Source: Cyanobacteria bacterium UBA11153
GTDB taxonomy: Bacteria; Cyanobacteriota; Cyanobacteriia; Cyanobacteriales; Coleofasciculaceae
Assembly: GCA_003511885.1 (NCBI GenBank)
Contig: DOIX01000129.1
Coordinates: 1-14,929 of the forward strand
Direction of reading: 5' to 3'
Length of the DNA stretch: 14,929 bases
The notes under the pieces were generated by a model, which ran no database searches, was not told the DNA's origin, and saw only the letters and a program-made list of their open reading frames with translations. This document shows positions 440-13,277 of this stretch, one piece after another. Position 1 is the first letter of the stretch, and every line of letters starts with the position of its first letter. Made by a program: the position numbers and the translations under genes.

Positions 440-3400
440 TTACCAAGGACTACCAATTATAGTGAATCCTGCCCAATAGTAAGGATGAGATAATTGGCGA
501 TTTTTCTCTGTTGCTAATTCTTTTGGGAGGTTAACTTTGGTATTTGTCCCGATTAATTCACCTGAATTAATATGGACTTTGGAGTGTAGCATAGCAAGTT
601 GTGCTTGGCGGAGGGCTTCGGCTTTGAGGGAGATTTTTTCTGTGTGGAGTTGTTGGTAAAATTCTGTCATTAAGGCTAGCGTACCTAAATCGTCTACTTT
701 CCAGAGACTTGCCATGGCTGATTTGACTCCAGCTTGTACTGATAATCCGGCAAAACCCATCTCAGTATTGTTATTTCCTACTGCTGTTTCACAAGCACTG
801 AGTACTAATAGTTCTACGGTTGGGAGTCCATACCATTGTACTCGTCTTAGTTCATTTAATCCTATTTTTGTATCCCACAGTTGAATGTAGGGACTTTGGT
901 TTCCGTCGAGAGGGAAGGAAGCGTGAGTTGATAAGTGAACGATATCAAATTTGGTTTGGCTGCGCTGATTTTGGAGATTGTTTATGGTGAATTGTTCGTT
1001 GAGGAATGATTCTCCTTTACCTACTTTTTGGAGTATAGTAGATAATTCGATAGGGACTGCGGGTAAGGGTAGTAGTGTGGAGTTGGGAAATTTTGATGCT
1101 CCCATGGCTAATATTTTAGCTTCTTTTAGGTTTTGATAGCTGGTATCGGTGAGGCTGATACTGGGAACGGAACCTATACTGTATTTTTCGATTAAAAATT
1201 GCTTGCCATCATGTAAGGCTGCTAGGGGAATTATCCTTAATCCTGCATCCATGGAGAAAATTAGGGTGTTTATTTTTAAGGCGTTTAATTCCGTTTCTAG
1301 GGGAGCGATAAACCATTGATATAGTTGTTGAGAAATTGGTAAGTAGGAGTCACTATTATAATCGTTGATGGCGTGGTAAAATTTTTGTAGTTCCCGGCGT
1401 AAGGTTTGGCTATCGGCATCGAGTACTATTTTGGTAATGGGTGAACCTTCGGGAGGTACTAGTACTAGTTGCAAGCCGTCTGGTTGGGGGAGGGCGTAGA
1501 TAACTACTGTCCTTTGTCCGGTTTGTTTTTCGATAGTTTTGAGGTTATCTCGTAAGTTGGCAGCGGTGACTTTTTTATGGGTGATGTCTTCTCCTAAATA
1601 GTTCTCAAATTGATCTTCAAATTTTTTATCAATCAGGGCAACTATATCATCTGGTTGGTTGAGTGGTAGGTTAATATAGGGGGCATTGAGTGATAAATTT
1701 GGGGCGTTGGGAATTGGCCAAATAAAGGTATAGTCTCCTTGTGGGTTAATGTTAATTTCGGGTTTGACTCCTAAAATGTCGCCCACAAGATAGGCTAAGG
1801 ATTCGAGGGGGTTTCGCTGGGAGATGGGATTGGGATTTACTATAGTAGTGCCAGTTGAGGTAACAATAGTTGGGGTTGCTGGGTTAGGATTGAGAGTGGT
1901 AATCCGATTGGGATCTATTGGTGGTGGCAGGGTGGGAGAAACTGATATAATTTGGATGCGTTCATTATCTTGTTTATGAGTATTTAGATATATTCGGGTT
2001 GGCTGAATACTGCGCACGGGATTATCGTTTCCTCTGGTAATTGCACCTTCTGTACCGTTGATATCAGAATTTCCGACAATAAAGGGAATTTTGCCATTGC
2101 CGCCATGTTGGATAATTATTGTGCCGCCGTTTACTCCTCCGGCGGTAGAGATACTGGCATTTATATTATTTTTATCGTTAAAGCTATCTGTAGCTTGGAA
2201 GAAATTACCTGTGGTAATATTAACGTTGCCGCCAATGCCGTTACCGAGGCTTTGGGCATTAATTTGACTGACGGTGATGATACCTGGTGCATTTAGATTT
2301 ACATTACCGCCGTTACTAAAGGTAGATGTATTGAGAATTCCGGTAGCAATATCTCTATGATTACTAGTCAGGCTAATCCCGCCGGGAGTGTTGATGTTGT
2401 TAGTGATAATATTATTGACAGTGGTAATATCGATTCCGGTTGGGTTGGTGGTGGTTGTGTTACCTTGGACTAGTAAGTTATTGAGCGGGATTGTGCCACC
2501 GACTATATTATTAAAATAAGCGGTGGGAGTATTGAGGATGAGATTATAGTTACCGTTAACTGTATCGTCAAAGGTAACGTTTCCCCCACCGGAAGTGGTG
2601 AAGGCGACATTACTACCCAAAGTAACAGGTGCATCAAAGATAATGTTGTTTTGATTGGTATCGATATCGCCCAGGGTAGTAATATTATTCTTGGCGATTA
2701 GGTTAATTTTGCCACCGTTATTGGTAAATGAATAGGCGTTAATTTGCCCTGCGGTAATTGTGCCTGCGGCATTGACTGTAATATCGCCGCCAATACCTAG
2801 TGCAGATGCGGTAATTAATGCGCCAGTGCTAGTGTTAACATTACCGTTGGTGCTGGTGATGTTAATATTACCGCTATCACCGCTAAAACCACTCAAAAAT
2901 GCAGTAATTGTTCCCGTATCGATATTACCGGGGGCAAAAAGAGTGATATCGCCACCATTTTTTCCACCTGCTGCGCTAATTGTGCCACCTACTGTATTAA
3001 TGATACCGCCACTAGTCAGAGAGATATTGCCAGCTTCAATCCCATTGGCATTAATCGCTTTACCTCTAGTAGTAATATTACCAGATGGGGCGTTGAGTGC
3101 GATCGCGCCTCCGTTACCATTAGCAGAAGATGAATCTAAAACATTGGGAGACGCACCAAATATAGAGAATAAACCAGCCGTTGATGAGGTATCGATAAAG
3201 CCATTATTCGCAGTAATAGTAATATTACCACCTCCCAATTGACCAAAAGAACTGATATCGCCTGTAATAATATTATTCTTAGCGGTAAGAGTGATATCAT
3301 TTCCTCTGTCATTGAGAGAGCCTGAAGCTAGATCGCCTATAATAATATTGCCATTGGCAGCATTTACAGTAACTTTACCGCTATTACCATTAAAATTAAC

Positions 3401-5827
3401 AGAACCCAGGCTGGCTAGTTGAATATCGCCATCATTCGCCGTGATATTCAGATTTCCGCTATTCCCATTGATAGCAGCAGAGATGATATTACCTGCTATT
3501 GTAAGCTTACCAGAAGTCTGGATATCGATATTCCCAGAATTACCTATTCCTACACTAGAAGAGATACTGGCATTTGCATTTAAAATTGGACTAAATTTTG
3601 GACTATCTAGAGTAATGTCACCACCATTAGCAATCAGACTGATATTGCCAGCATTACCAGAAAAACCGGGATTATTCTGGATTAAACCGGATACTTTGAT
3701 ACTGCCAGCGTCAGCCTGTAAGAGAATATTACCAGTATTACCTGCAAAACTCTCCGCAGTTATCCCATTCTTCGGAGTATCTATATTAATATTGCCATTG
3801 TGGGAAATAATGGTAATATTACCAGAATTTGCGGGAAACTGAATATTACGATTTCCCGATGCAATTTGATCGCCACTTATATTAATATCTCCATCACTAA
3901 TTATATTAATATCGCCACTTTGCAGGGGAAGAAAACCATTAAAACTACTGTAATTTGATTGGAGTGAAGTAATACTAATTGTCCCACCACTATGAGATGT
4001 TAGGGTAATATCACCACCATTACCAACGTTATTATTAGTATCAATTGTTCCCACAGTAATATTTACGCCGAAAATCTGAACTGCACCTCCTGGTGTCTCA
4101 ATTACATTCCCTGAATCCATCGAGAAATTGCCAACACCATTAAGATCCGAATCTGCGATAAATGTAATAGTTTGACCATAAGGAGTATTAAAAACTAACG
4201 AATTACTAGCTGGATTATTATTAACTAAATTGTTAATGATAATATCGTTAGTAGCTTCCAGTGTGATATTCCCCCCCAAATTATAAAATATGTTAGAGGA
4301 AATTGTAAAATCATTACTGCCACCATCTGCACTGAGGATTGTGCTATCATTTAATTCATTATCGTTAGGGGCAGTAGGAGCATCGACTATAATAATATTT
4401 CTCGGATCTAGTAGTAAATTACCCGCAATTCCATTGGTAGCAGTTACATCAACATTCCCGCGAAAAATCAGATTTTCCTTACCCGAAACTTCCACAAATC
4501 CACCATTACCTGAATTATTACCACCACGGGCGGTAATATTACCGTAAAATCCAGTAGTATCATCTGCCCAAACTATAACACGACCGCCATCACCATTAAG
4601 CAGGCTATCGGCATTAATTACAGAATCGCTACTGACAAATGTCCGTAAAGCATTAGGAATAAAACCTTTTCCTTGGTAATCGCCACCAATCCGGATTATT
4701 CCACCACCATTAATACCGGATGCGTTGATATTAGCGTTAAATAGTCCCACTTTTTGTCCGATAATATTGATATTACCGCCAAACCCCCCTAACCCCCCTT
4801 GACTGAAGGGGGGAATCAGAGGAGATGAAACATTGATATTACCGGAAATAATGGTAATTCCGGATTCAGTAGGAATAGGTGTGGGAGAATTTGCTAGGTG
4901 GATGTTACCTTCTGGAGAAACACTCAAGCCAGTTTCGATATTCTCTCCTATTCCTGTCAAAAGAGTTGGCAAATCTAAAGGAGTGACAGGAATAGGATTA
5001 CCGGAATTATCTCTAGGCGGTTGTATTTCTAAACTTAGCAAGTTTCCCGGTTGACTAATCCGCACTAAATTAGAACCCGGTACAGCCGCAACGGTAATTG
5101 TGCCATCTGGCGCGTTTAATTCTCCAGTATTAATAATAGTACCACCCAGTAAGGTTAAATTCTGCCCTGCTGTTACGGATAAGTTACCTGCGTTGATGAT
5201 AATTCCTGGTTGGGCTAAGTCAAAGGCAAAACTATTGGGATTGCCGATGAGATTTTGGTAGTTATTTGCACCAAAAGCATTAAACCACCCCCTTGTAAAA
5301 GGAGGGGTGGAATTTATATCGCTTCCTAATAAAGGAGAAGTGTTAAAACCAATACCCGTAGCAGTAGTAGCAGTAAAAGCGGCAGGCACATTTAAACTGG
5401 CATTGCCACCAAAGACAATTCCAGATGGATTCATTAAATATAAGTTGGAATTACCGCCAGTTACTTGAATTAATCCGTTAATTAGTGAAGGTGAACCCCC
5501 GGTGACTCGGCTTAAGATATTCTGAATTTGTGGAGAAGATAGAAAGTTGGCAATTTGGTTGGAATCTAAGCCGAATTGTTGGAAACTGTGGAAGAGATTT
5601 GCTCCATCGCTGGATAATGTCCCGCCAGTGATGTTGAAGTTATTGCCATTTTGGTTAACAATGGTTCCTGTACCATCATTGGCTGGGGTAATGGGTTGGG
5701 CTTGAGCAAGTTGAGATAGAGCGAGGGGTGATATGGTGCAAATGCTAAATAATATAGTTTGTAGTGAGCGCTTTAGCGCTAAAGCGCCTACTACGAACTT
5801 AGTTAGATAAAATTGATTAATTTCCAT
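440..5827 (-). CDS. Two-partner-secretion (haemagglutinin-type) exoprotein with C-terminal CHAT protease domain
   Basis: A 1795-residue predicted surface or secreted protein. A long signal peptide (about 1-43, ending AQA before QPITP) precedes a TPS/haemagglutination-activity domain (about 45-165) with NPSGIVFG at 133-140, the usual TPS signature region. Next comes roughly 900 residues of Gly/Asn/Ile-rich strands (GNINI, GDITL types) that should fold as a right-handed beta-helix. A Pro/Thr/Asn-rich linker (about 1296-1345) leads to a CHAT domain (about 1390-1795). CHAT is a caspase-like peptidase fold; the dyad is visible as His1635 in HLSTHA and Cys1679 in LSACET, so it is probably active. 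The ATG at 5827 overlaps the preceding gene by 11 bp, with AAGGGA upstream, suggesting translational coupling. Three interspersed DNA repeats lie inside the frame. The substrate is unknown and no TpsB transporter is in the window. Domain calls are firm; role is inference. Confidence 0.9.
4784..4816. repeat. Interspersed C/G-run palindrome inside the exoprotein gene
   Basis: CCCCCCTAACCCCCCTT followed by GACTG and AAGGGGGG forms a small inverted repeat. It matches intergenic copies at 9469-9498 and, in reverse orientation, 9648-9677. Within the gene it is in frame and encodes about residues 336-350 ([16 protein letters not shown]), a peptide unlike the surrounding beta-helix strands. Confidence 0.75.
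5285..5312. repeat. Second, diverged C/G-run repeat inside the exoprotein gene
   Basis: CCACCCCCTTGTAAAAGG followed by AGGGGTGG is a short inverted repeat related to the copy at 4784-4816. It encodes about residues 172-181 ([10 protein letters not shown]), just after the conserved TPS domain. The frame is kept, and the PPF core resembles the peptide made by the other copy. Confidence 0.6.
5761..5794. repeat. Palindromic repeat in the signal-peptide coding region
   Basis: GTAGTGAGCGCTTTAGC is followed directly by GCTAAAGCGCCTACTAC. The two 17-nt arms match at 15 positions. It looks like a mobile interspersed palindrome and encodes VVGALALKR plus flanking residues (about 12-22) in the N-terminal region of the exoprotein signal peptide. 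Confidence 0.7.
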
Positions 5828-6932
5828 TACTATTTAATTCCCTTAAATGTCTTTCTACTTCATCAATTAGTTCTGGATAATTTAATCTTTGATATCCCTT
5901 CAGCGCCAAACTAAACCATCTCATAGCTTCAGCTTTATTTCCTAATGCAGCTTCCACTTTTCCCAAACTATATTGAATCTGAGTTTGTTCCTCAATATCA
6001 TCAGGCTCTGCTACCGCAATTGCCTTTGCGTAATATTCCTTTGCTTGGGGGATAAGTGCCATATAATGAAAATAGCGATCGCCAATTTGTCGGTAGATGG
6101 GTGCAGTCTGGATGCCGCTGGCTGCTAAAATTGCGATCGCATCCCCATTTAAGCCATTTTCACTATACAAATTTGCCATAGCAATTGTCTTGGCTGCTTC
6201 GCTCCAAGGTTGCTGGGCAATTGTTGAGGCTTGAGTGCGAATCTCTTGGGCTTTGTCTGCCTCAATTACTCGAAAATTAATCCCGCCAACTCTCACAGAC
6301 TCATCTAAAGAAGACACGCCTGTATCGGCTTCCACTGTTAACAAATAGGAAACACCTGATTGGAGTTTTGGTGTGCCGGGATAAATAATTTCCGTATCGC
6401 TAACTTGAGTAGTCCATTTCACCCCCTCACCTTCTACATTTACTGTATAAACTTTCGCACCTGCTACGGGATGCCAGCGGAGGAGGGGTTTATCATTAAT
6501 AATTGCTGTACGACGGGGACTAATAATATAAGGAATGTCATCTTTCCAAGCAATTTCTTCACCGCGATGAGGACATTTATAAGTGCCTGGGCTGCATTCA
6601 GTTTGTTCAGTTTCCGAGGGGCAGGTATTGGCTTGATTTTTGCCAGGAGATATGGATTGTGTGGATAAGTTGGCACATTGAATGATAACTCGGGCAGCGT
6701 TAGCAGTTAATAACTTATCTCCTGGATAAATTACTGTACCTGTTTTGGGGTAAATAATTCTGCCATCTCGCTGAATCTGTACCTCGCCAGTTGTCTGGAT
6801 AATTTGTCCGTTGGCGATAGGGTGGGGGATATTTTCTCCTTTGATGCCAATTCCTGTTGCTGGAGAATAGCTGTTAATAATGACTAAAAAAAAACTGATG
6901 GCAAATCCTGTTATTCGTCTAACACCCGCCAT
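5817..6932 (-). CDS. Secreted FecR-like protein with C-terminal TPR-type helices
   Basis: A 371-residue predicted periplasmic or exported protein. The ATG at 6932 is chosen because it opens a clear signal peptide ([17 protein letters not shown]) and has AAGG about 7 nt upstream. An upstream extension to 7139 would run through an interspersed palindrome and overlap the previous gene. Residues about 41-90 look like a FecR-type domain ([17 protein letters not shown], then [18 protein letters not shown]). Residues about 138-220 look like a beta-sandwich module ([15 protein letters not shown]), and about 235-365 are TPR-like helical repeats ([13 protein letters not shown]). Four cysteines (86, 104, 113, 120) cluster between the first two parts and could form disulphides. 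It is overlapped by the exoprotein start codon, so the pair is probably co-expressed. Function is not known; it could be a periplasmic partner of the exoprotein. Confidence 0.8.
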
Positions 6933-6958
6933 TTGAACCTTTGTGTGAAATTGAGCGC

Positions 6959-7034
6959 GTAGCAGGGCGAAGCATTCGGGTACAAAAATCCGGGATTTTG
7001 CATAAAATTGATCGCCCGAATGCTTCGCCCCTAC
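6959..7034. repeat. Interspersed palindrome between the CHAT-TPR and FecR-like genes
   Basis: The left arm GGGCGAAGCATTCGGG (6965-6980) is perfectly inverted at 7015-7030 (CCCGAATGCTTCGCCC), with GTAG/CTAC at the outer ends. The loop of about 34 nt contains a smaller hairpin (AAAATC-CGGG-ATTTTG). GGGCGAAGCATTCGGG palindromes are of a type I recognise as frequent in cyanobacterial intergenic DNA. It lacks a T-run on either side, so it is unlikely to be a simple terminator. It could alter mRNA processing within the operon. Confidence 0.75.
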
Positions 7035-7087
7035 AATATCCCGGTACTTATTAGTAATGTATTGTGGTATTAAGCCTATCCTACTTT

Positions 7088-8899
7088 TCACGGTATATTT
7101 CCTTTTGCTTGTAAATATTGCCGAGCCAAACCCAAACACTCATCTTCTTCTGGCACATTATATTCAGAATAGTGCAGCGTATTTTTCCAGACAGTTAGTG
7201 CTTCTTCTTTGTTCCCTTTATTTTCCAAAACTTGGGCTAAAAGGCAATAGGAATAAGGGCTATCAGAAGATAGCGCGATCGCACTCCGTAAATCCGCTTC
7301 TGCTTCATCAAATCGCTCCTGTTTAAATCGCGCCCAACCCCGATTTTTTAAACAAGCAGCTTTCACACCATTGTATTGAGTATGGTTTAAACATTCTGAA
7401 GTATATTTCAGTACTGCTTCTATATTATTTTGTTTCATTTCCAAGCGAGAAAGTTCCGCATAAGCGTCAGGAAGTCCGCGAATTGCGGCCTGTTTGAATC
7501 CTTGAATGGCGCATTTTGTATCGTTAAGATTCTCATCACATAGCCACCCTAAATTGTAATAAGGTTGACCATAATTCCAGTCGAGGAAGGCAGCTAAATG
7601 ATAGTATTGTTGAGCAATCAATAATTGACCATTCTCATGACTTTTTATGCCCAACTCATTCACAAAAGGCGCAAGTTTACATCCGAATGACAGGTAACTG
7701 CTAATAAACCCAACTAAGAAAAGTGCCACTAACTTAAGGGGTAAGTATCTTCGTTGCTGAGGTTTCGGGGGTTTGGGTTCTTTAAGTTCCTGGGGTTCTC
7801 TCAAGTCTTCCCAACTTGGTGGAATAACTGCTGGATGCTGACAGATAACAGGTAACCAACTGGCACTTGGAAATTCATTCTCAATTCCTTTTAATTGTTC
7901 CCTAGCTTGCCTAACTGCAATATGAAAAGGTTCCCCAAAAGCAAACGCCCGTAAAAAATACTTCAAAAAATCTTGTGCCACCCTATCCATCACAGGTTCC
8001 CGCATCACAATCATGGGCGGTAGCGGAATCTGTGCAGCCGCTAAATCTCGCGCTAATCCTAACCCATCACAGGAATTAAAAATAGCTAACCTCAATCCTT
8101 TGCCAATAGCACGATTAAGCGCTAATTCTAATTCACTAATAGTCAAGCTATTATGGTGAGAATGCCGATTAATATAGATCTTGCCATTAGTAGCATCTGC
8201 TGCACTAGAACTATGTCCAGCAAAAAATAAAATATCCCAACTTTCTTTCCAAAGTTGGTCATTAAGTTCCTGTCTGTCTGGTTCCACCAACCAGGTTATT
8301 TCTGCACCTGGTAACTCATTCAGAAACTTCTGGTCTTTTTTAACATTAATACCATCACTATTACCTAAAATAGCCAGTATTTTTACATGAGATTTGGCTG
8401 TTTTCGGCTCTAATAAAACAGGAGCCGGATACTCCGGTGTACTCAAAGCTATCTCAGCATGAGGATAATCACCAAAAAACTGCCAAAGATGCCAGGGTAA
8501 TTTCCAGATATCGGGGTTATCGCTTTCCACAATAACTTGCACTTTTTCAGAGGGCTTTAATTGAGTTCTCAGTTGCGAGTCAATCTTGCGAAAACCCTCA
8601 GTATTTAACCAAGTATTAATCCTGGTTTTTAATCCATCGCAAATGTCACTAAATTCTCCCTCAGAAATATTAGTGACACCACTTTCTTCTATTTCGATGC
8701 CGGAACGAATGCCATATTGAGAAAGCGCCTCATAAAGCAAACGCCAATTTCTGAGAAGTTGGGGAATTTCTGGTGCTGAAGGTAAATTCCCTGTAAACTG
8801 CATGTACAGATTTCCAGCTTCTCCTAACCGGGCTGTAACATGAGGAAATCCATCTTGGAAATTCCCTGAACTAAGACTTAATACCACTAATTTCGTCAT
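7088..8899 (-). CDS. CHAT protease with transmembrane segment and C-terminal TPR domain
   Basis: A 603-residue membrane protein. An N-terminal region (1-160) of unclear fold leads into a CHAT domain (about 170-360) with His229 in FFAGHSSS and Cys277 in IFNSCDG, the expected caspase-like dyad. A charged Lys/Pro-rich linker (about 370-385) precedes one hydrophobic helix (387-407), and TPR-like repeats follow to the end (about 422-600). The basic residues before the helix predict CHAT in the cytoplasm and TPRs in the periplasm. The ATG at 8899 (MTKLVVLSLSSG) is preferred over a TTG at 8953, because the extra 18 residues look non-native; no strong ribosome-binding site is seen for either. It lies between DUF1822 and the FecR-like gene on the same strand. 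CHAT proteins are known as signal-responsive proteases; the substrate here is unknown. Confidence 0.87.
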   Translation of the reverse strand: MTKLVVLSLSSGNFQDGFPHVTARLGEAGNLYMQFTGNLPSAPEIPQLLRNWRLLYEALSQYGIRSGIEIEESGVTNISEGEFSDICDGLKTRINTWLNTEGFRKIDSQLRTQLKPSEKVQVIVESDNPDIWKLPWHLWQFFGDYPHAEIALSTPEYPAPVLLEPKTAKSHVKILAILGNSDGINVKKDQKFLNELPGAEITWLVEPDRQELNDQLWKESWDILFFAGHSSSAADATNGKIYINRHSHHNSLTISELELALNRAIGKGLRLAIFNSCDGLGLARDLAAAQIPLPPMIVMREPVMDRVAQDFLKYFLRAFAFGEPFHIAVRQAREQLKGIENEFPSASWLPVICQHPAVIPPSWEDLREPQELKEPKPPKPQQRRYLPLKLVALFLVGFISSYLSFGCKLAPFVNELGIKSHENGQLLIAQQYYHLAAFLDWNYGQPYYNLGWLCDENLNDTKCAIQGFKQAAIRGLPDAYAELSRLEMKQNNIEAVLKYTSECLNHTQYNGVKAACLKNRGWARFKQERFDEAEADLRSAIALSSDSPYSYCLLAQVLENKGNKEEALTVWKNTLHYSEYNVPEEDECLGLARQYLQAKGNIP

Positions 8900-8948
8900 G
8901 GCAGGATGTTTGATCTTGTCGCACAAAATTAAAAAAATAGTAGATCTA

Positions 8949-8986
8949 CTCAATCTGGGGATATTTTTAAAGAGTTATAGATTGAG
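8949..8986. promoter_or_regulatory. Inverted repeat upstream of the CHAT-TPR gene
   Basis: CTCAATCT (8949-8956) is inverted as AGATTGAG (8979-8986), about 50-90 nt upstream of the chosen start at 8899. It could be an operator or a 5' leader hairpin. Only 8 bp match, so chance is possible. Confidence 0.25.
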
Positions 8987-9105
8987 ATCCACTCTTCCTC
9001 TTGCCAATGATTCTAGCATATTATTTTGGTAATAAGTATTACGTTTCCTATCAATTCCAATCTATATAACTATCCACTAGTAGTGGAAGAAGTGGGGAGA
9101 GATAT

Positions 9106-9146
9106 TTAAGTTTTGTAACATAGATCCTCCCTACTGCGAAATTTTT
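9106..9146 (+). promoter_or_regulatory. Promoter-like motif upstream of the PEP-CTERM remnant
   Basis: TTTTGTAACA (9111-9120) and TGCGAAATTTTT (9135-9146) are separated by 15 nt between GTAAC and TGCGAA, counted from the core. The same pair occurs upstream of the intact PEP-CTERM gene (12249-12283) with 14 nt spacing. A weaker version occurs at 11544-11577. Shared sequence upstream of homologous units suggests a promoter or regulator site; the cognate factor is not known. Confidence 0.4.
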
Positions 9147-9200
9147 ATCAATTCTGGCGATATCATGATGGCGATATCAAAACACACCAATCGCCATTAT

Positions 9201-9240
9201 CCCGCCAGATAATCAATTTTTACCTCACTGGCGGGTTTTC
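9201..9240 (+). terminator. Terminator-like hairpin
   Basis: CCCGCCAG (9201-9208) pairs perfectly with CTGGCGGG (9228-9235) and is followed by TTTTCT. The loop is 19 nt and A/T-rich. The orientation fits plus-strand transcription, but no intact plus-strand gene precedes it, so it would end only a short RNA started near 9140. Confidence 0.45.
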
Positions 9241-9366
9241 TCCTGACTTGGCACATTAGGAGTTGGCGCAATGGTAAAACGCAAAATGAATCAGAAAAAT
9301 CAGGATGACAACCATAACTAATTGATGTCACACTTCACTAAATAATCCCGATAGTGTCTTGTGCGC
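9240..9366 (+). pseudogene. Decayed 3' end of a PEP-CTERM protein gene
   Basis: From about 9246 the frame reads LGTLGVGAMVKRKMNQKN, then QDDNHN and a stop at 9319-9321. The intact gene ends LGSLGIGAIAKRKLNKKN, then QDDNLN. Nucleotide identity by eye is about 78% over the last 24 codons and about 85% over the 47 nt from the stop onward (40 of 47). A TGA stands in frame just upstream (9244-9246), and no signal peptide or PEP motif is present. This is the tail of a duplicated PEP-CTERM gene whose body has been lost. The intact paralogue is at 12504-13277 on the same strand. Confidence 0.8.
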
Positions 9367-9384
9367 TCGGCTGAAAGCCGAGCG
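9364..9384. repeat. Strong hairpin after the PEP-CTERM remnant
   Basis: CGCTCGGCT-GAA-AGCCGAGCG is a perfect 9-bp stem with a GAA triloop, 42 nt past the remnant stop codon. It is followed by AATTTATTA rather than a clean T-run. It may be a terminator of the lost gene or an interspersed palindrome. Confidence 0.5.
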
Positions 9385-9468
9385 AATTTATTATCAGTTG
9401 CTCTTGTTATAACCTGTTATCGTAAAAATATTCTAATACTAATTTACTAAAATAGCGCTACATATTAA

Positions 9469-9498
9469 CCCCCCTAACCCCCCTTATTAACGGGGGAG
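9469..9498. repeat. Interspersed C/G-run palindrome, intergenic copy
   Basis: CCCCCCTAACCCCCCTT followed by ATTAAC and GGGGGAG. The first 17 nt are identical to the copy inside the exoprotein gene at 4784-4800. Confidence 0.75.
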
Positions 9499-9573
9499 CC
9501 AGGATCGCTACTGTAGCAGGCATTTAGAGAATTGATATAAATTGCGATCGCAGTCAATATATAATGTAAGTTG

Positions 9574-9593
9574 CTACTTAAAAGCTTAAGTAG
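9574..9593. repeat. Small inverted repeat
   Basis: CTACTTA-AAAGCT-TAAGTAG is a 7-bp perfect stem in the gap downstream of the DUF1822 gene. No T-run follows on either strand, so terminator function is doubtful. Confidence 0.35.
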
Positions 9594-9600
9594 TTTAGAA

Positions 9601-9677
9601 GCCCCTTAACAAGTAATCCAGTTCCCCCCTTAACAAGTAATCCAGTTCCCCCCTTAACAAGGGGGGTTAGGGGGGTG
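9601..9677. repeat. Tandem 24-bp repeat ending in a C/G-run palindrome
   Basis: The unit CCCCTTAACAAGTAATCCAG plus flanking TT and C bases occurs twice (9602-9623 and 9626-9647). A third partial unit runs into AACAAGGGGGGTTAGGGGGG. The last unit contains the complete inverted repeat (CCCCCCTTAACAAGGGGGG), suggesting local duplication of one arm of an inserted palindrome. It lies immediately beyond the stop codon of the DUF1822 gene. Confidence 0.7.
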
Positions 9678-9700
9678 ATAACTAGCAACATTGATAACTG

Positions 9701-10699
9701 TTAGATTGTAAACGCTTCCGTAATACCGATCTCATCAAGAATTACTTGAAGACTAAAATTCGTTCCCGGTTGCACCCGAAACTGTCTCAATTGAATCCAT
9801 AAATCCATGCCTCTCGATTGTGCTTCCTGAAGATGTTCCCCAGATTCTGAAAGTAACACTAACTTAATATCAGCGGGCAAATAGCGATCGCTTCCAGCCG
9901 GATGGAGTTGTGCTATAATACTAATTCTACTATCTCTTTCTTGACTGATAGCCATCACCAAAGCATTTGATTTATTTCTAAACTGTATCCCCAGATTTAT
10001 CAATTTAGCCCGCACGATTTCCCCATCAGAAAATAGGGCAATACTACTTCCTTTGCGAAATGCTATAGCATCTCGGAATTCCAGTTTATCCGCCGTAAAA
10101 ATATCCTCAATTGCTTGCCAACCAGTTTCAAAAACATTCATCAACCACTCACCCAGATTCACTTTAGGTATAGGTAAAGCCAACTTTTCCAGGTATTCTA
10201 ATAAACTATCCAAAGACTCCAACTGATTAAAGTACAACTCACCCTTACCCGCATTTTTAGCAAAACCCAGCAAATTTGCCTCCCTCTTTTCCTCATCAAT
10301 TTGCACCACAACATAACCGATGCGATCGCACCACACCTCTGGCGGGACGCTACAGATATTTGAACATGGAGATAATTCCGACAAAGATGACTTGCCATCA
10401 GAATTAAATACCTTCACGGGACGACATTCTAACCTACCTAAACCTGGCAAATTTAGATCGGCAATATCCGCACAAAGACGAACAACTGGATGCCAACTAT
10501 CACTATTAGCTAAATCCGTATCAATCTCCATCAACTGTAAATAATCCCGCACCGCCAAAACAGCCAAAGTATTCAGATAAACCTGCTCTTTTTTGTCCAA
10601 AGTAGGTTGTTGATCCGCAAATTTATGAGCCGTTTTAATTGCCGTCTCAGTAATCGGCATCGGCATAGAACTGCCTAGTAAAATGTTGGTATGTGTCAT
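9701..10699 (-). CDS. DUF1822 family protein
   Basis: A 332-residue protein resembling DUF1822, a family known mainly from cyanobacteria with no established biochemical role. Recognisable blocks are YLNTLAVLAVRDYL (about 41-54), VPPEVWCDRIGYVVVQID (118-135) and WLMNVFETGWQAIEDIF (185-201). There is no signal peptide or membrane segment, so it should be cytoplasmic. The ATG at 10699 is chosen; a TTG at 10741 would begin inside a tandem repeat, and ATGs at 10666 and 10660 are possible alternatives. It follows the sigma-like gene by 119 nt on the same strand. In my recollection, DUF1822 genes often sit next to sigma-like genes in cyanobacteria, so regulation of that factor (for example as anti-sigma or adaptor) is a reasonable but untested inference. 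Confidence 0.82.
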   Translation of the reverse strand: MTHTNILLGSSMPMPITETAIKTAHKFADQQPTLDKKEQVYLNTLAVLAVRDYLQLMEIDTDLANSDSWHPVVRLCADIADLNLPGLGRLECRPVKVFNSDGKSSLSELSPCSNICSVPPEVWCDRIGYVVVQIDEEKREANLLGFAKNAGKGELYFNQLESLDSLLEYLEKLALPIPKVNLGEWLMNVFETGWQAIEDIFTADKLEFRDAIAFRKGSSIALFSDGEIVRAKLINLGIQFRNKSNALVMAISQERDSRISIIAQLHPAGSDRYLPADIKLVLLSESGEHLQEAQSRGMDLWIQLRQFRVQPGTNFSLQVILDEIGITEAFTI

Positions 10700-10738
10700 A
10701 ATTAGCTGATACTCTCTACTCACTACATAATTGCCGTT

Positions 10739-10790
10739 CAAACTTTGCGCCCTTTGCGCCCTTCTTTGCGCTCTTTACGTTAAAAATAAA
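10739..10790. repeat. Short tandem repeat (TTTGCGCCC type) between sigma and DUF1822 genes
   Basis: Degenerate tandem copies of TTTGCGCCC/CTTTGCGCT occupy most of the 119-nt gap. Such short repeats are common in filamentous cyanobacteria. The position within a likely operon suggests an insertion or slippage product; it carries no coding signal. Confidence 0.6.
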
Positions 10791-10818
10791 CCACCGCTAA
10801 CCAAAAATACATCTCTCC

Positions 10819-11448
10819 TTAAAGATATCCCCGATCTTCGCCAAATTTTCGCAACCGAGGTAAACATTGACGCTGGTAAAAATTCGCTAGCGTAGAAATT
10901 GAACAATCAAACTCCTCCGCTAGAGACTTCCAAGCAGTCTCCGGCGGTAAGCGACGGAGAATTAAAATTTGACAAGTTAAATCTGGACGACCTTTAATAT
11001 GAATATTCCCTAATTCTCCATCAGGATCTCTCTTTACCCAATCTATAATGTCGTCCAGAGTCGGTGGAATAGGAGCAGGAGCAGGTAAATTGTCTATAGG
11101 ATTGGTTTGATTTTCGGAATTTGGTACTGGTAGAGGCATTTCGATATTGTTTTTCTCATGCTGTATCATCTCAAAATCTAGTAATCTTTTTTTCAGATAT
11201 CCATCCAACCAAGTCGTCACACTACTTCTTTCTGGATCGTATTGTTTTCCGGTATTACTTTCACAAAGATTCCGACATAAATATAACCAAGTTTGTTGTA
11301 GTGCGTCTTCATAATACGGCGTATTTTTCCTCCATAGTTTGCGAGATTTAATAATAGCTTGTACCAGCCGATTTAAGCTTTGACGGCGCTGGATACTCCT
11401 AGGTTTATACTGACAGGTTTGACAAACAAGCGAGTTGAACTCATCCAT
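10819..11448 (-). CDS. Sigma-70 family (ECF-like) RNA polymerase sigma factor
   Basis: A 209-residue protein with the two-domain layout of small sigma factors. Residues about 24-95 fit region 2 (YYEDALQQTWLYLCRNL, then SSVTTWLDGYLKKRLLDF). A Pro-rich linker (about 105-132) follows. Residues about 160-203 fit region 4, with a helix-turn-helix in AWKSLAEEFDCSISTLANF. Regions 1 and 3 are absent, as in ECF factors. It would direct RNA polymerase to a specific promoter set. An N-terminal CxxC (Cys9, Cys12) is unusual and could bind metal or respond to redox state, but no second pair in a classical zinc arrangement is evident. It is the first of five same-strand genes and is divergent from the 105-residue membrane protein. 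The family is diverged, so its promoter specificity cannot be read from sequence. Confidence 0.72.
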   Translation of the reverse strand: MDEFNSLVCQTCQYKPRSIQRRQSLNRLVQAIIKSRKLWRKNTPYYEDALQQTWLYLCRNLCESNTGKQYDPERSSVTTWLDGYLKKRLLDFEMIQHEKNNIEMPLPVPNSENQTNPIDNLPAPAPIPPTLDDIIDWVKRDPDGELGNIHIKGRPDLTCQILILRRLPPETAWKSLAEEFDCSISTLANFYQRQCLPRLRKFGEDRGYL

Positions 11449-11495
11449 AAGTTAACTTTGATGGTGGTGTGACTCCTATCCTTCATTTAGTTATC

Positions 11496-11520
11496 TGGCG
11501 AAATCCCAAGTTTTTCGCCA
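11496..11520. promoter_or_regulatory. Inverted repeat upstream of the sigma-like gene
   Basis: TGGCGAAA (11496-11503) is perfectly inverted as TTTCGCCA (11513-11520), 48 nt from the sigma ATG within the divergent promoter region. It could be an operator or a leader hairpin. The GCGAAA core also appears in the motif 46 nt to the right. Confidence 0.4.
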
Positions 11521-11540: not shown

Positions 11541-11577
11541 AAAGTTTTATGAACAAAAAAGTAGCTGCGAAATTTTC
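11541..11577 (+). promoter_or_regulatory. Weaker copy of the TTTTGTAACA/TGCGAAA motif
   Basis: AAAGTTTTATGAAC (11541-11554) is followed 11 nt later by TGCGAAATTTT (11566-11576). The second half matches the copies at 9135 and 12271; the first half and the spacing are less conserved. It is about 115 nt upstream of the membrane protein at 11691. Confidence 0.3.
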
Positions 11578-11690
11578 CCCAATTCCACCGATATATATAT
11601 AGATGTTCAGAGGGAGTGGCTGTCTCCTGTTCCCCTTTACCTCTGCCCTATTTACTAGATAGCTATATTGATTTCAAGGAATTTACAGTC

Positions 11691-12285: not shown

Positions 12286-12503
12286 AAATCCACTGATAAA
12301 AGAACAGAGGGTAAAAAGAGTCATCTACAACAACACAGATACGAAGCTAACAGACTTTATCTGTGAGGGGAAATTTAGTGCAATTTGCCTCTGACAATTT
12401 TGGGTTTAGTTTCAGCATAATTGCTGATGAATTTAAGAGAGAGAATGTACGTCCCCACTATTTCAAATTCTTGATAGGTTCAACATCAAAAGGAAAAAGT
12501 AAA

Positions 12504-13277
12504 ATGATGAATTCCACACTTGTAAGGCATTCAACTCTACTAGCTGGTGTAGTTACTGCAATTAGTTTATCAATTTTGACGGATACCGCTAATGCTGCCA
12601 CTATTGTCAATGGAGGATTTGAAACCGGAAATTTTTCAGGATGGACTCTTGTCAATCAACCTGGTGGTAGTGGTAACTGGTTCGTTACAAGTGGTAGCGT
12701 TTCTCCTCAGTCTGCTCATTCAATTCCACTGCCAACTGAAGGAACGAAATTTGCTGTCACCGATCAATCTGGTCCAGGTTCCCACGTCTTATTTCAAGAT
12801 ATCTCACTAGAGGCAGGTTTTCAACACATACTATCCTTTAACTGGATTGCTGAAAACTGGGATGGGCGAGGACTTTTTAATCCTGGAACTATGAATCAAA
12901 ATACCAGACCTAACCAACAATTCAGGATCGATCTTGTTCCTGTTGGATTTACTAACTGGTTTGCTCCTTCTTCCAGTGCTGGAATCCTCACCAATATTTT
13001 AGCTCCCGTTGCTCAGAATGCTCCAGTCAATCAGTGGAATAACCTAACATTTGATTTGACTCCTTGGGCAGGTTCTACCGTGAGATTGGCGTTCAGAGAA
13101 GTTGACAACCAATGGTTCTTCAATGCTGGGGTTGATCAGGTTAAGATAGCCTCCACTCCTGTTTCCGTACCCGAACCTAATTCTACATTAGGTTTATTCG
13201 TACTTGGATCATTAGGAATCGGTGCGATCGCAAAACGCAAGCTGAACAAAAAAAACCAGGATGACAACCTCAACTAA
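12504..13277 (+). CDS. PEP-CTERM sorting-domain exoprotein
   Basis: A 257-residue exported protein. The ATG at 12504 opens a signal peptide (1-31, ending TANA before ATIVNGG) and has AAGGA upstream; a GTG at 12363 would add 47 unlikely residues in front of it. Residues about 32-215 form one beta-rich domain starting NGGFETGNFSGWT, a typical opening of cyanobacterial PEP-CTERM exoproteins with a carbohydrate-binding-like fold. The C-terminus has the sorting signal: VPEP (222-225), a hydrophobic stretch (229-242), and KRKLNKK. In known systems such tails are processed by an exosortase in the inner membrane; no exosortase is in this window. The tail continues unusually far with NQDDNLN. A decayed second copy of the 3' end lies at 9240-9366. 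It may take part in sheath or extracellular matrix. Confidence 0.88.
   Translation: MMNSTLVRHSTLLAGVVTAISLSILTDTANAATIVNGGFETGNFSGWTLVNQPGGSGNWFVTSGSVSPQSAHSIPLPTEGTKFAVTDQSGPGSHVLFQDISLEAGFQHILSFNWIAENWDGRGLFNPGTMNQNTRPNQQFRIDLVPVGFTNWFAPSSSAGILTNILAPVAQNAPVNQWNNLTFDLTPWAGSTVRLAFREVDNQWFFNAGVDQVKIASTPVSVPEPNSTLGLFVLGSLGIGAIAKRKLNKKNQDDNLN

Follow-up and report, generated by a model that had tools for sequence, protein, structure and literature searches.

FecI/FecR/FecA signalling brings together an ECF sigma factor, an envelope protein and an outer-surface protein. The EACC2-caspase systems, as described in the eLife 2021 paper (PMC8195603), comprise an ECF sigma factor, a DUF1822 protein and a constant N-terminal caspase-like module followed by a variable C-terminus, which can be CHASE2. 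In the CASP/Craspase systems of type III-E CRISPR, the TPR-CHAT protease Csx29 cleaves Csx30, a protein that binds and inhibits an ECF sigma factor; the account of this case in PMC10028731 rests on binding, ChIP and reporter assays in E. coli.

The window, i.e. the whole stretch of 14,929 nucleotides analysed here, is an entire contig (C429) of a 437-contig genome, and its open reading frame list bears out the five same-strand genes of an earlier, sequence-only reading. In order along the minus strand they encode a sigma factor, a DUF1822 protein, a CHAT-TM-TPR protein, a secreted protein and a TPS-CHAT exoprotein (Table 1). The start of the last gene overlaps the stop of the secreted-protein gene by 11 nt, and the starts at 8899 and 6932 were chosen to agree with where homologues begin and where the signal peptide lies. 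Among named relatives Limnofasciculus baicalensis (Coleofasciculaceae) is the closest, its secreted protein being 76% identical. The gene row is interrupted by approximately 800 nt holding an inserted element of 209 nt, which looks like a small mobile insert and contains two tandem 24-nt copies at 9602-9649. Outside the cassette, the plus strand encodes a protein with a weak PEP-CTERM sorting signal (12363-13277) and the start of a Ser/Thr kinase gene that is cut by the contig end (14484-14929).

Table 1. Coordinates of the five genes and of two further elements in the window.
Feature	Position	Strand	Description
TPS-domain exoprotein with C-terminal CHAT	440..5827	-	PF05860 (E 8.6e-42), PF12770
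Secreted protein	5817..6932	-	Signal peptide, variable N-terminal domain, Fn3-like domain, TPRs; longer ORF from GTG 7139
CHAT-TM-TPR protein, 603 aa	7088..8899	-	PF12770 and TPR matches; longer ORF from TTG 8953
209-nt element	9468..9676	.	30-nt inverted ends, 93% complementary; in the DUF1822-CHAT gap
DUF1822 protein	9701..10741	-	PF08852 (E 8.4e-72); ORF start TTG 10741, ATG 10699 also possible
ECF-type sigma factor, 209 aa	10819..11448	-	Regions 2 and 4 only; from ORF and predicted-structure comparison
GCGAAAAA-N15-GATAAC element	11490..11518	-	Upstream of the sigma gene; conserved

Like the EACC2-caspase system of PMC8195603, the window has a CHAT domain near an N-terminus (PF12770), an adjoining ECF sigma factor and DUF1822 protein, and a variable C-terminal end, although no family named EACC2 is among the Pfam or NCBIfam matches of the window proteins. 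Unlike the systems in section 9 of that paper, it couples the TM-TPR part with a secreted Fn3/TPR protein and a TPS-CHAT exoprotein; the terms "hemagglutinin" and "two-partner" are absent from the main text of PMC8195603, whose source data could still list such loci. The output half (sigma, DUF1822 and CHAT, often with CHASE2) is already published (PMC8195603), whereas the link from it to a sensor in the outer envelope seems to be new: neither the coupling of the envelope module with a TPS-CHAT exoprotein nor the exchange for a kinase at its cytosolic end was found in the open-licence literature searched. As in CASP/Craspase, a CHAT protease, an intermediate protein and an ECF sigma factor are encoded together, but the trigger there is RNA via Cas7-11 (PMC10028731) and the trigger proposed here would be an envelope signal; no cas domain, including the Cas7-11 effector, is found among the nine window ORFs scanned. 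A CHAT domain in a filamentous cyanobacterium is also a feature of HetF (NCBIfam NF045509), but the CHAT-TM-TPR protein reaches 24 bits with that model, for which the cut-off is 1200.

The observation of the sequence-only reading is partly confirmed. Among the nine window ORFs, Pfam recognises DUF1822, the TPS domain and the CHAT domain of either CHAT protein. The FecR-like label, which the sequence-only reading gave to what is here the variable N-terminal domain of the secreted protein, has no support from Pfam: at the level of sequence profiles, FecR gives no match to this protein at E 0.05 and is absent from the 25 families listed for 19 of its relatives. Fn3 and TPR chains match it by profile, and its sole hydrophobic segment by simple hydropathy is N-terminal and signal-peptide-like. 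The parallel that had been drawn with FecI/FecR/FecA is functional at most. Besides FecR, a membrane-spanning anti-sigma factor with a cytosolic N-terminus was not found in the window (Pfam scan of nine ORFs, simple hydropathy), nor was a TonB-dependent receptor with a signalling domain among those ORFs, and the cassette, unlike the Fec system, adds proteases.

The pathway that we infer, with its topology, its direction, protease activity, DUF1822 as both inhibitor and substrate, and autoregulation, would run as follows. The TPS-CHAT exoprotein would leave through a TpsB pore whose gene lies elsewhere and would encounter its cue at the outer membrane or outside it; the secreted Fn3/TPR protein would then pass the cue on, within the periplasm, to the TPRs of the CHAT-TM-TPR protein, which would switch on its own cytosolic CHAT protease. 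This protease would act, most likely, on DUF1822, which is proposed to keep the small ECF sigma factor inactive, and cleavage would release sigma to transcribe its targets, probably including its own operon. A signal running from outside to inside is the probable direction, and a route that leads from the envelope proteins to sigma by way of CHAT, irrespective of the substrate, is slightly favoured. The exoprotein does carry the N-terminal TPS domain of TpsA. No TpsB is encoded in the window, where the contig ends 440 bases past the exoprotein gene, and five ShlB matches lie on other contigs.

Homologues were surveyed in 146 genomes across the phylum, with matches to sigma in 29, DUF1822 in 41 and the secreted protein in 16 (each at E 1e-5), and, at E 1e-10, to the CHAT-TM-TPR protein or to domains of it in 49. 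All 29 sigma-positive genomes are also DUF1822-positive, and 12 of the 41 DUF1822 genomes lack a sigma match at E 1e-5. Within the order, the secreted-protein profile finds matches in at least 187 of 388 genomes, a lower bound because at most five candidates per genome were scored and not all matches were listed. Ten domain profiles were then mapped on fetched stretches (20 around the secreted protein, 20 around sigma/CHAT genes and 80 from a second survey, mainly the best-scoring); L098 was dropped as a copy of L095, while close copies were kept in one genome (L094/L090) and between two (L092/L093). Twenty-three loci, in 22 genomes of two families (six genomes in the window's family and 16 in a single genus of another), have the order sigma, DUF1822, CHAT-TM-TPR, secreted protein; all four genes are visible at 21 of them, and sigma is lost to the contig end at the other two (L121, L124). 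Names carried by similar proteins include Microcoleus. There is room downstream of the secreted protein at 16 of the 23 cassettes, and 12 of these carry a same-strand TPS and/or CHAT exoprotein gene; at one (L122) a gene of the CHAT exoprotein type lies on the opposite strand, and at three (L130, L141, L146) neither kind is present in more than 8 kb. The remaining seven end within about 300 bases. The adjacency that the sequence-only reading had put forward for a search is thus not unique to this genome, although both halves of the row also occur independently.

The secreted-protein gene has a same-strand TM-TPR gene within 3.5 kb upstream in 92 of 102 cases. The N-terminal part of these TM-TPR proteins is a CHAT domain in 26, a helical membrane domain without a Pfam match (HEL) in 41, a Ser/Thr kinase with a Cys-rich start in 14 and of another kind in 11, some of the last being split or truncated frames. 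Counted among the 11 is L147 (10014-11072), in which an EAD4 domain is fused to TPRs in the CHAT/kinase position. The TM-TPR proteins of L150, L157, L168 and L169 share an N-terminal domain of about 90 residues without a Pfam match, and at several loci genes lie in two frames or pieces and are maybe pseudogenes or sequencing errors (TM-TPR at L086 and L108, DUF1822 at L129 and L138). The window's own genome holds a second envelope module on another contig (L088, contig C90), of the kinase type, where CHAT and TPS are encoded by separate genes that face the other way.

What lies upstream differs with the type. A same-strand DUF1822 gene precedes 23 of the 26 CHAT-type modules, and sigma also precedes 21, compared with 0 of the 66 kinase-, HEL- or other-type modules; eight of the 66 stretches hold less than 2.5 kb upstream, and the firm figure is 0/58. 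Fisher's test gives p = 9e-19 by locus and 3.6e-5 by genus (5/7 against 0/32, with labels hand-read from listings and some genera in both groups), and both values overstate independence because the positives come mostly from two families. Three CHAT-type modules (L092, L093, L175) have neither gene upstream on their strand; in L175 a partial DUF1822 gene lies on the opposite one. Around the sigma/CHAT genes, 15 of 20 stretches have a sigma match and none has an adjoining same-strand secreted-protein gene; here the extracytoplasmic sensor domain CHASE2 often forms the end of the CHAT protein (called by Pfam in four of five proteins scanned, and by our own CHASE2 profile in the others). At three CHASE2-type loci (L071, L073, L074) an exoprotein-type CHAT gene stands just before DUF1822, in L071 and L073 between sigma and DUF1822, and in L071 and L074 its product has a strongly hydrophobic N-terminus. 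Across the chosen stretches, the C-terminal end of 44 CHAT homologues is TM-TPR in 30, CHASE2 in 10 and neither in four.

The locus is therefore composed of two separable modules that are joined here: an output half (sigma, DUF1822 and the cytosolic CHAT) and an input half (TM-TPR, Fn3/TPR protein and TPS/CHAT exoprotein), with the CHAT-TM-TPR gene as their point of fusion. Since each half occurs separately, CHAT/sigma/DUF1822 behaves as an output that either CHASE2 or the TM-TPR envelope module can drive, and the envelope module behaves as an input able to drive a kinase or CHAT. The refuting conditions set by the sequence-only reading thus receive a divided answer: the adjacency is seen beyond this genome, but sigma, DUF1822 and CHAT are found together without the envelope genes, and the envelope genes are found with kinase-type or other partners and without sigma.

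Separate occurrence of both halves is also what would be seen if the two modules adjoined by chance and were inherited together, without a shared pathway, and the secreted-protein tree can be read in the same way, as all 23 cassette members fall in a single clade (support 98/96; three rows shorter than 180 residues were dropped, with L092 and L093 among these or near in length). Against this, the halves join in one fused gene and DUF1822 is associated with the CHAT type, with the contrast given above. Furthermore, the CHAT tree places 22 cassette members together (97/94) and L153 in a separate group of eight (100/99), and the sigma tree groups L153 with L064 and L068 (98/96). The output half has therefore been replaced, or the cassette assembled, at least twice, with the proviso that L153 is a single locus on a long branch in all three trees. 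Chance neighbourhood is already disfavoured and, as an explanation, very unlikely. The cassette sigmas of the two families fall apart in the sigma tree, where those of the window's family sit with CHASE2-type sigmas (99/98, a 19-row group), a pattern that may reflect fast change in the other family or a further exchange of partners. Because of the conserved order in 22 genomes, the CHAT/TM-TPR fusion, the association of DUF1822 with the CHAT type and the output genes of another lineage in L153, the shared trans-envelope pathway of the sequence-only reading is partly supported, with the qualification that its halves are separable; the five genes very probably form one functional unit.

The sigma factor has no Pfam or NCBIfam profile match, and its best sigma chain by sequence profile is at E 0.069. 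Its AlphaFold2 model (pLDDT 87, pTM 0.47) fits region 2 and region 4 structures separately, region 3 being absent, and sigma folds prevail among the matches listed (Foldseek, VIA), none of them at Foldseek E 0.001. The element upstream of its gene is common to both cassette families: a relaxed form is present in 11 of 21 five-gene cassette sigma upstreams against a Markov mean of 0.04, a count inflated by kinship among the sequences and by a pattern picked after inspecting them, and in 1 of 14 other sigma upstreams. The element is a candidate promoter and could be the one that this sigma factor itself uses. A different stretch, AAAATTTCGCAG, stands at 9131-9150 and 11561-11580, upstream of the CHAT gene and of the sigma gene, and again upstream of sigma in L095.

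In its strict form the element occurs once in the 6.6-Mb genome, before the window sigma gene, as might be expected if the system worked from the inside out, with sigma and CHAT merely expressing or processing the exoprotein, for example with a sigma factor that transcribes just this operon. The strict pattern has little power to find a regulon, however, and the reversed control pattern also occurs once; moreover, the envelope module is found elsewhere without any adjoining sigma gene. Such an inside-out arrangement is improbable.

The catalytic residues of the CHAT-TM-TPR protein are the His in FFAGH and the Cys in FNSC, and those of the TPS-CHAT exoprotein the His in STHA and the Cys in SACET. 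We infer that both CHAT types would be active enzymes, because the His/Cys dyad is kept in 44/44 aligned cytosolic-type and 79/79 aligned exoprotein-type domains, the window's included (domains below 300 and 240 residues, respectively, were left out of the alignments), and with dyads in every aligned domain CHAT proteolysis is plausible. Homologues of the CHAT-TM-TPR protein share a stretch ahead of the CHAT match. The window protein has one clear TM segment at about residues 388-406 (hydropathy 1.77), with TPRs C-terminal to it, but the segment is marginal in 15 of 30 homologues (best 19-residue hydropathy below 1.6) and no more than 19 of 30 have flanking charges in favour of N-inside, so that the TM segment would be the weak point of the proposed topology.

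The DUF1822 model (pLDDT 86.5) begins with helices and continues as alpha/beta with a C-terminal beta sandwich; it does not look like TPRs, contrary to the TPR label in PMC8195603, and among the matches listed against the PDB no anti-sigma fold stands out. All 34 loci in which the three genes are mapped have DUF1822 between sigma and CHAT. This constant place and the Csx29-Csx30-sigma precedent are the reasons for favouring cleavage of DUF1822, which by that analogy is a tentative candidate for a CHAT substrate that inhibits sigma. The main rival, for this last step only, is that CHAT cuts its own chain on stimulus and the freed part engages sigma, with DUF1822 as a scaffold. Autoproteolysis has been proposed for EACC2-caspase proteins in PMC8195603, and the variable sensor end is joined straight to CHAT, but the invariable position of DUF1822 would be left unexplained, and this version of the step is unlikely.

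The caspase-like domains, together with the EAD4-fused relative L147 and the reading of related systems as conflict systems in PMC8195603, would also suit a role in immunity or cell death, in which the exterior proteins sense an invader or contact with kin, the two CHAT proteins execute damage and the sigma response is secondary. PADLOC (2023 library) matches none of the five proteins, and the long retention of one order by two families would suit routine signalling better than an arms race. This role, which is partly compatible with the envelope-to-sigma pathway, is therefore quite unlikely as the main one.

Taken at its broadest, the proposed pathway would be a plug-in envelope sensor made of a TPS/CHAT exoprotein, a secreted Fn3/TPR relay and a TM-TPR receptor, with an exchangeable cytosolic output: a Ser/Thr kinase, a helical membrane domain, EAD4 or another small domain, or a CHAT protease that releases sigma. 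Combined with CHAT proteases on both sides of the envelope and with DUF1822 as a new class of anti-sigma factors inactivated by cleavage, this full picture is rather doubtful. The data place DUF1822 and the secreted TPS-CHAT proteins, two unexplained families, in a testable pathway, and the occurrence of one sensor module beside different outputs marks the boundary between input and output. Such a pathway would tie bacterial caspase-like proteases to an envelope signal, as the CRISPR Craspase ties them to RNA.
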